Shown one piece after another: positions 27,966-30,679 of a DNA stretch of 64,000 nt (position 1 is the stretch's first letter; every line of letters begins with the position of its first letter). The notes under the pieces are model-generated. The model saw only the letters and a list, made by a program, of their open reading frames with translations. It had not been told where the DNA came from and searched no databases. The position numbers were made by a program, and so were the translations under genes. Source of the DNA: Acinetobacter terrestris (GTDB lineage: Bacteria; Pseudomonadota; Gammaproteobacteria; Pseudomonadales; Moraxellaceae); the NCBI RefSeq assembly GCF_004331155.1, contig NZ_SJNZ01000002.1:1-64000 (forward strand), given 5' to 3'.

Positions 27966-28517
27966 TTATTTCTTACGTTTCGGTCCAATGAGCATGCCCA
28001 TTTGACGACCTTCCATTTTTGGTGCTTGTTCGACTGTACCGTATTCAATTACGTCTGCTTCAACTTTTTGTAATTGAGCAAGACCTAATTGTTGGTGAGC
28101 CATTTCACGACCACGGAAGCGCAAGGTAATTTTTACCTTGTTCCCTTCCTCTAGGAAACGAAGAATTGCACGTAACTTGATGTTGTAATCACCAATGTCT
28201 GTACCAGGACGCAACTTAATCTCTTTAACCTGAACTTGATGCTGTTTTTTCTTCGCATCTTTTTGCTTTTGCTTCAGATCGAATAAATGTTTGTTAAAGT
28301 CCATGATTTTACAAACAGGCGGCTCTGCATTAGCAACGATCTCAACAAGATCAAGCTCAACTTCTTCTGCAGCGCGCAACGCTTCAGCTAAAGAAACGAT
28401 GCCCTTTTGCTCTCCTTCAGCACCAACGAGACGTACTTCTTTTGCACGGATCTCGTCATTCAATGCAGGACGATTGCTTTTAGCACCTTGTTGTTGGTTA
28501 CGGTCAGGCTGTTTAAT
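27966..28517 (-). CDS. infC: Translation initiation factor IF-3 with ATT start codon
   Basis: IF-3 (183 aa) binds the 30S subunit and checks the start codon. The first ATG-type frame begins only at 28463 (M-N-D-E-I-R-A-K-E), which would lose the family N-terminus. Extending upstream gives an ATT at 28517 with GGAG eight bases before it, encoding (I/M)[12 protein letters not shown]. ATT initiation is the classical infC arrangement: IF-3 discriminates against ATT and so limits its own synthesis. The thrS stop codon lies 5 bases upstream, with the GGAG inside thrS. No rpmI-rplT follow; a terminator does. Confidence 0.96.
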
Positions 28518-28522
28518 CTTTA

Positions 28523-30445
28523 TTACTCCACAATATACCGGCCACGTTCGGCTACGGCTGCTTTCACTAGGTCAACGAAGGCATCAATTGACATAGTACC
28601 TAAATTTTTTCCTGAGCGGGTACGGACATTTACTGTACCTTCCTCTACTTCACGGTCTCCAAGAACCAGTAAGTAAGGAATACGCTCTAAAGTACGTTCA
28701 CGAATCTTAAAGCCGATTTTCTCATTTCTCAAGTCAGAAATGGTACGAATTCCACTTTCTTTAAGTTTAGCGACGACTGACTCACACGCCTCAGCTTGTG
28801 AATCGGTAATATTCATTACACACGCTTGAACTGGTGCTAACCATGGTGGCATGAAACCAGCGTAGTGCTCAATAAGAATACCAATAAATCGTTCAAAACT
28901 ACCCAGAATTGCACGGTGCAACATCACAGGCTGATCGCGATCATTATCTTCTGTTACATAAGATGCGTCTAGACGCCCTGGTAAGTTGAAGTCACACTGA
29001 ATAGTACCACATTGCCAGATACGGCCTAAACAGTCTTTTAACGAGAATTCAATTTTCGGACCGTAGAACGCGCCTTCACCCGGCTGTAAATCCCATTCAA
29101 GACCCGCAGCATCTAAAGCATCCGCCAAAGATTTTTCCGCCATGTCCCAAAGTGCATCTTCACCGACACGTTTTTCAGGACGAGTCGACAACTTCATTTG
29201 TACGTCTTCAAAGCCAAAGTCTTTGTATACGTCCAGTGTCAATTTGATAAAGTCTGCAACTTCAGGACCAATCTGTTCCTTGGTACAGAAGATATGTGCA
29301 TCATCTTGAGTAAAGCCGCGTACACGCATAATGCCGTGTAAAGAACCTGATGGTTCGTTACGGTGACATGAACCGAATTCTGCTAAACGTACTGGAAGAT
29401 CACGGTACGATTTTAAACCCTGGTTAAACACCTGCACGTGACAAGGACAGTTCATTGGTTTAACCGCGTAGTTACGGTTTTCAGAATGCGTGGTGAACAT
29501 GTTGTCTGCATAGTTTGCAGCATGTCCTGATTTTTCCCACAGCGTAAAATCCACCACTTGCGGGGTACGAATTTCTTCATAACCATTGTCTTGTTGAACT
29601 TTACGCATGTACTGTTCAAGAACTTGGTAAATGGTCCAACCGTTCGGATGCCAGAATACCATACCCGGTGCTTCTTCTTGCATATGGAACAAATCAAGCG
29701 CTTTACCAATTTTACGGTGATCGCGTTTTTCTGCTTCTTCAATACGTTTTACATAAGCTGCAAGCTGTTTCTTGTCTGCCCACGCTGTACCGTAAATACG
29801 TTGTAACTGTTCATTCTTCGCATCACCGCGCCAGTAAGCGCCAGAGATTTTAGTCAGCTTGAATGATTTTAAGAATTTGGTGTTTGGAACGTGCGGACCA
29901 CGGCACATGTCCAAATAATCCTGATGGTAGTACAAGCCCATTTGAGTTTCTTCAGGCATGTCTGCAATCAAGCGTAATTTGTATTCTTCACCGCGCGCTG
30001 TGAATTCTGCAATCACTTCGTCACGAGGAGTCATTTTTTTCACGACTTCATAGTCTTGATCGATGAGCTTTTTCATACGCTCTTCAATCGCTGCCATGTC
30101 GTCTAATGTGAATGGACGTGGCATCCAGATGTCATAGTAGAAACCTTCTTCAATGACAGGACCAATTACCATTTTCGCTTCTGGGAACAATTGCTTAACA
30201 GCATGACCGACCAAATGCGCGCAAGAGTGACGGATAATTTCCACGCCTGCTTCATCTTTAGGCGTGATAATTTGTAAGGTTGCATCTTCAGTAATCAAGT
30301 CAGACGCGTCAACAAGACGATCGTTTACACGACCTGCAACTGTATTTTTTGCAAGACCAGGGCCGATGCTAAGCGCAACGTCCATCACAGATACGGCGTG
30401 ATCAAATTGTTTTTGATCGCCATTGGGTAAAGTGATAATTGGCAT
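28523..30445 (-). CDS. thrS: Threonyl-tRNA synthetase
   Basis: Class II synthetase of 640 aa that charges tRNA-Thr. Domains in order: TGS (about 1-62), the editing domain with [10 protein letters not shown] (about 73-82) and the C-M-D-like C-R-G-P-H-V-P-N, the catalytic core with the zinc-site M-N-C-P-C-H and [10 protein letters not shown] (motif 2), [10 protein letters not shown] (motif 3), and the C-terminal anticodon-binding domain. The start has AAGGA seven bases upstream, and directly before that lies a hairpin mimicking the tRNA-Thr anticodon arm, so autogenous translational control is likely. It is co-transcribed with infC. Confidence 0.98.
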
Positions 30446-30465
30446 AAGAAAATCCTTAAGGAGTG

Positions 30466-30486
30466 ATGCCCCGTACCATGGGGCAT
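30466..30486 (-). promoter_or_regulatory. thrS operator hairpin mimicking the tRNA-Thr(GGU) anticodon arm
   Basis: On the transcribed strand a 7-bp perfect stem (ATGCCCC with GGGGCAT) closes a 7-nt loop A-U-G-G-U-A-C. Numbered as an anticodon loop (32-38), this gives U33, anticodon G34-G35-U36 and A37, which is exactly a threonine anticodon loop. The stem can extend through GTGAT/ATCAC with a small bulge. The Shine-Dalgarno AAGGA follows about 10 bases downstream. In Escherichia coli ThrRS represses its own mRNA by binding such a mimic, although with a CGU loop. A small second hairpin (GAGG/CCTC, 30507-30518) lies upstream. Binding here is inferred. Confidence 0.7.
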
Positions 30487-30679
30487 ATCACCGCGAGATT
30501 ATGATCGAGGAGAACCTCAAAAGATAAAAACGGTGGATAAATAAAAATCGACTTGAATTTTACACGTCTTAGCCATGGGATTAAACCTTTTCACCTAGAA
30601 AATTCGCGATTTGGCTCATTTTGAATTTATTTGCCAATACTTTGTCTTTACTCAGATCAGGAAATTTTCAGCTTTGTTT

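Follow-up and report, generated by a model that had tools for sequence, protein, structure and literature searches.

The window, a 64,000-nt stretch of the Acinetobacter terrestris genome, carries on its minus strand the gene thrS (28523–30445; TIGR00418, 732.7 bits), which encodes a full-length threonine–tRNA ligase (ThrRS) of 640 amino acids with its N-terminal domains present. The next gene after thrS on the same strand is infC (IF-3; 27966–28460; TIGR00168). The thrS start codon is the AUG at 30445, and the Shine-Dalgarno sequence AAGGA (30453–30457) stands 7 nt before it. Upstream of both, on the minus strand, lies the feature under study: a hairpin at 30466–30486 with a 7-bp stem and a 7-nt loop. 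The 5′ strand of the stem, AUGCCCC, occupies 30486–30480, the loop AUGGUAC 30479–30473 and the 3′ strand GGGGCAU 30472–30466; within the loop, the anticodon-like triplet GGU (positions 34–36 in tRNA numbering) falls at 30475–30477. The tetranucleotide CACU (30462–30465) follows the stem directly. The 3′ end of the leader thus reads, 5′ to 3′, GGUGAU-AUGCCCC-AUGGUAC-GGGGCAU-CACU-CCUUAAGGAUUUUCUU-AUG, with 20 nt between the end of the stem and the start codon. The original prediction had described a perfect 7-bp stem with the loop AUGGUAC at 30466–30486, just upstream of the thrS Shine-Dalgarno; these coordinates agree exactly with the sequence, read on the minus strand, and AAGGA lies downstream of both stem and tail.

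We found that the predicted pair probabilities in the stem range from 0.68 to 1.0. The 61-nt fold around the hairpin is only mildly unusual (z −1.04; 28 of 200 shuffles were equally stable), and the 111-nt leader as a whole stands out for its stability (z −3.58; matched by 0 of 200 shuffles). Farther upstream lies a second, composite hairpin that is specific to Acinetobacter (30488–30536; CACCG/CGGUG, UUAU/AUAA and GAGG/CCUC) and lacks a conserved NGU loop. It is preceded by a conserved TAAAAT (30557–30562), a possible −10 element, which appears as GTGTAAAAT in most rows of alignment A2. This alignment comprises 42 Acinetobacter leaders; one leader with an expanded upstream arm (L079) and one that has lost the arm (L084) were left out. 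The thrS transcript would start at about 30550. A scan of the leader region found neither a sigma-70 consensus promoter nor a terminator-like site, and both explanations were rejected. In all 42 leaders of A2, the Shine-Dalgarno (30453–30462 in the window) lies inside a self-complementary UCCUUAAGGA, which presumably resembles the 3′ end of 16S rRNA, here beside its own partner.

Conservation of the hairpin and of its loop

To place the hairpin in a comparative context, we assembled 227 thrS loci, all from the order Pseudomonadales (the same genus, family and order) except one from E. coli. Seven loci with a poorly placed start codon were left out (L043, L044, L085, L086, L089, L215 and L228; of these, L043 and L228 show the hairpin by eye), leaving 220 usable leaders. 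The leaders were taken from part of the genomes found, and the Acinetobacter loci are biased to close relatives. The thrS hairpin occurs across these leaders far beyond chance: within their last 100 nt, 139 of the 220 leaders have a 7-nt loop NUNGUNN closed by a stem of 5 bp or more, compared with 46 of 4400 shuffled leaders. We also scanned the leaders with the loop sequence ignored, asking for at least six of the seven stem pairs and a CACU-like tail, and 188 of the 220 were positive. In these 188 loops, G35 was always present and U36 was present in 187; the sole exception is a chance match elsewhere in the L179 leader, whose real operator has a weaker stem. Likewise, the motif was present in 188 leaders, and absent from 32, when G-U and at least five pairs were required.

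Aligning related thrS leaders, a check proposed with the original prediction, bore out the conservation of the stem, with covariation, and of the GU of GGU, but position 34 proved free. The gap-free alignment, A1, contains 118 distinct sequences, and double, pair-keeping changes occur at all seven stem pairs; 96.1% of cells are paired, versus 31–53% for slid partners. Without the Moraxellaceae (70 sequences), five of the seven pairs show double changes and 95.7% of cells are paired. This covariation is strong evidence for the predicted RNA hairpin. The CACU right after the stem is nearly invariant in A1, from E. coli to Acinetobacter. An outer stem around this tail was not apparent: for most offsets, exchanging the flanks among leaders gave at least as much pairing, and at the one offset where the true flanks paired more across all leaders (0.24 versus 0.11), the values within Moraxellaceae were 0.70 versus 0.72, and the signal is therefore explained by relatedness.

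The operator is absent from several leaders whose family relatives keep it (L035, L108, L115, L125; L111, L117, L123; L039, L127, L128, L137, L139, L143). These operator-less leaders belong to some Psychrobacter-like, Moraxella-like and other Moraxellaceae, and the pattern suggests repeated loss. In genus g95 (L145, L146, L147), the operator lies 78–107 nt before the predicted thrS start, versus about 20 nt usually.

The loop of the A. terrestris hairpin had been read as U33, anticodon GGU and A37, and from this it was proposed that the leader mimics the GGU isoacceptor of tRNA-Thr. The first part describes this leader accurately; across leaders, U33 (174 of 188 loops) and A37 (154 of 188) are frequent, not fixed. 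The second part would mean that the loop copies tRNA-Thr(GGU) and that control senses that isoacceptor. The tRNA-Thr(GGU) of the same genome has the loop UUGGUAA, close to AUGGUAC, and G is the commonest base at position 34 (95 of 188 loops). However, position 34 is C (53), A (21) or U (19) in the other 93 loops, and in Acinetobacter alone it is G in 28, C in 14 and U in 11 of 53 loops. When these 53 Acinetobacter loops were mapped on a thrS tree from a quick maximum-likelihood run, the minimum number of changes was 10 at position 34, two at position 33 and three at position 37, and none was needed at positions 35 or 36. In addition, the genome contains two genes for tRNA-Thr(UGU), with the loop CUUGUAA (the tRNA-Thr genes were found among 13 scanned loci, of 30 taken, from 70 tRNA matches), and the AGU loops, 21 of the 188, fit no bacterial tRNA-Thr known to us. 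We thus consider mimicry of the GGU isoacceptor very improbable. On the sequence evidence, the hairpin is one that presents the threonine identity pair G35–U36, the GGU being incidental in the A. terrestris strain.

Counterpart in E. coli, distribution and proposed mechanism

In E. coli, ThrRS binds the thrS leader via anticodon mimics and hinders 30S binding, tRNA-Thr competes with the leader, and replacing the anticodon-like bases with those of the methionine type brings the leader under MetRS control (PMC9976931, PMC7373986 and PMC3858243). The hairpin in our E. coli leader (L229), GUGAUCU UUCGUGU GGGUCAC CACU, lies 21 nt before the AUG and fits alignment A1. The Acinetobacter hairpin aligns with this domain 2 of the E. 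coli operator and shares with it the 7-bp stem, the 7-nt loop with U33-N-G-U, the CACU tail, the gene that it precedes and nearly the same distance from stem end to AUG (20 nt versus 21 nt). The two differ in the loop (GGU and A37 in Acinetobacter, CGU and G37 in E. coli) and in the first stem pair (A-U versus G-C); furthermore, unlike the E. coli operator, that of Acinetobacter has no second NGU arm that we could find and has a different upstream structure. Sequence comparison indicates that Acinetobacter ThrRS is identical to the E. coli enzyme at four anticodon-contact positions, N502, N575, E600 and R609, which we take to be the anticodon-reading residues.

We asked how widely the hairpin is distributed, using covariance model R1. 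Because R1 includes Acinetobacter rows, its match at the A. terrestris site is partly by construction; the training set contains three of the 90 matching genomes described below, namely this one, G118 and G134. Within the A. terrestris genome, R1 gave one significant match, at the thrS hairpin (E 3e-6). A second ThrRS target in this genome was rejected on the position of the next match (E 0.66), which is antisense to an unrelated gene and within it; the third match had an E of 3.2. Across the Gammaproteobacteria, R1 matched 90 of 274 genomes, once each (E up to 0.01). The match ends 7–20 nt before thrS in 71 of 71 genomes with a listed thrS position, and tblastn confirmed the link to thrS in five further genomes, such that all 76 sites checked, of the 90 genomes, directly precede thrS. 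In a sample of the phylum, 52 of 299 genomes matched, several being training genomes. Only three of these matches fall outside the class; they are weak (E 0.003–0.009) and have no thrS in neighbouring ORFs by eye, and we rejected a spread beyond Gammaproteobacteria.

Among 80 named thrS loci, 70 have an R1 match, each just before thrS, a chance hairpin in L366 not being counted. They include Acinetobacter towneri, Psychrobacter immobilis, Marinomonas, Halomonas, Stutzerimonas and many Pseudomonas. The ten loci without a match are seven from Lysobacter, Pseudoxanthomonas, Xanthomonas and Lysobacterales, a Moraxella assembly (L316), Halomonas sp. NO4, which has a degenerate remnant (L383), and a gammaproteobacterium (L389). 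Three Acinetobacter genomes contain a second, 46% identical ThrRS gene (G042:C26, G051:C1 and G086:C77); the leaders of these second genes (L399, L397 and L398) gave no match to the operator model.

A second model, R2, was built without Moraxellaceae. In the window, R2 ranked the thrS site first, weakly (14.9 bits, E 0.029; next match 9.8 bits, E 1.1). In the whole genome, the site came second (E 1.5), the top match (E 0.19) lying elsewhere. Since R2 is weak at the site, we draw the link to E. coli from the graded Moraxellaceae series in A1 together with the position before thrS, and not from R2 by itself.

The position and structure of the hairpin, its covariation, the fixed G35–U36 with a free position 34, the link to thrS and the alignment with E. 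coli were all computed in this analysis. Together, the conserved stem, the fixed identity pair, the position before thrS and the fit with E. coli leave autogenous control by ThrRS, as in the original prediction, well supported. The hairpin is probably the counterpart of the E. coli ThrRS-binding operator hairpin, and this makes autogenous translational control the best reading; we put at roughly 0.9 the probability that it serves, in an autogenous translational thrS operator, as the arm to which the repressor binds.

By analogy with E. coli, free ThrRS would bind the anticodon-like loop through the anticodon-binding domain that it uses for tRNA-Thr, and would read G35 and U36. Bound ThrRS would then block access of the 30S subunit to the adjacent downstream Shine-Dalgarno. 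tRNA-Thr would compete for the enzyme, and translation would resume once ThrRS is short relative to tRNA-Thr. In this scheme, ThrRS binding, ribosome exclusion and tRNA competition are carried over from the E. coli work. T-box leaders, like the thrS operator, place synthetase genes under control through tRNA; unlike the thrS operator, T-box RNAs bind the tRNA itself. In yeast, the AspRS mRNA with its tRNA-Asp-like motif is likewise a case of a synthetase acting on its own mRNA via tRNA mimicry (PMC9976931 and PMC7373986), but RNA and enzyme are unrelated to those described here and the principle is convergent. In a 2026 paper, E. coli strains that had evolved under ceftazidime-borrelidin selection are reported with a point mutation, likely in the thrS 5′UTR, which the authors suggest relieves autoregulation (PMC13148393).

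The same hairpin might instead be a structural or standby element that serves ribosome spacing or mRNA stability, or that derives from an old terminator, without recognition by ThrRS. It does adjoin the Shine-Dalgarno, and structured standby sites exist. However, a mere spacer would not fix G35–U36 while the stem turns over, nothing like a terminator was found, and the model matches precede thrS in every one of the class genomes checked; we give this explanation very little weight. Still less credible is a role as operator for IF-3 or a ribosomal protein, other products of the operon: infC comes after thrS here and also in E. coli, in which it is joined by rpmI and rplT, but the conserved loop bases are the threonine identity bases, and the hairpin lies before thrS and has a counterpart that E. 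coli ThrRS binds (PMC9976931 and PMC7373986).

Number of arms, the upstream element and the wider family

The E. coli operator has a second anticodon-like arm, domain 4, with the loop AUUUGUUG containing UGU. We found no second NGU-loop arm in the 140 nt upstream in any of 53 Acinetobacter leaders (shuffles 2.8%, 1.5 expected), and thus no operator of the E. coli two-arm (bipartite) type in this genus. Among the other leaders, 16 of 135 have a second arm; with shuffles at 2.7%, chance alone would give about 3.7, and it surely accounts for some of the 16. Second arms are convincing in E. coli, in L183, L186 and L188, in five leaders (L105, L119, L120, L121 and L126) from the Moraxella-like genus g99, in which a TATAAT precedes the arm by about 13 nt, and in L197, which carries a tandem pair (L197:179-242). 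The two operator hairpins of that pair are 34 nt apart, are both CACU-tailed and have model E values of 3.4e-7 and 7.5e-8. Family f8 extends the range further. Of its five leaders, L391 and L183 have three tandem arms, L392 has two that pass the strict scan and a third whose stem is weaker, and L393 lacks arms altogether; L220 is degenerate. The arms are 35–38 nt apart, and in L391, L392 and L183 the CACU tail is present on the first and third arms and not on the middle one.

A structured element upstream is common to the E. coli and Acinetobacter leaders. Unlike E. coli domain 4, the composite hairpin of Acinetobacter has a variable loop without a conserved NGU. It is genus-wide, with CACCG/CGGUG enclosing GAGG/CCUC, and an energy comparison with its alternative pairing gave −29.5 when free versus −23.9 with CCACCG blocked. 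In A2, only one pair shows a double change. Because the sequence is mostly invariant and offers little covariation, the upstream pairing is weakly tested and only partly supported.

These observations may be joined in one reading, which we offer tentatively and regard as rather doubtful. There would be a ThrRS operator RNA family throughout the Gammaproteobacteria with a single-arm core, of which the E. coli two-arm form is a variant, the arms numbering from one (Acinetobacter) to three (f8). In Acinetobacter, the genus-specific hairpin would replace the second arm, and its CGGUG might pair either with CACCG upstream or with UCAC downstream, extending the operator stem, such that the leader could adopt two alternative states.

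Rfam 15 (4227 families) gave no match in the window at gathering score and no leader match up to an E of 1, and it has no match for the E. coli thrS leader either. A full-text search of openly licensed PMC papers, seen as titles and abstract starts, found no report of the operator in Acinetobacter or of its spread through the Gammaproteobacteria, and an earlier mention of its conservation is possible. What is new is the single arm in Acinetobacter with its genus-specific upstream hairpin, and the up to three tandem arms in family f8.

Our results turn a textbook case of E. coli translational control into a widespread RNA family that is missing from Rfam 15. Its natural variation, with position 34 free, G35–U36 fixed and the stem turning over, follows the tRNA-identity rule. 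Finally, the range from one to three arms makes testable whether repression needs the two-arm geometry of E. coli.
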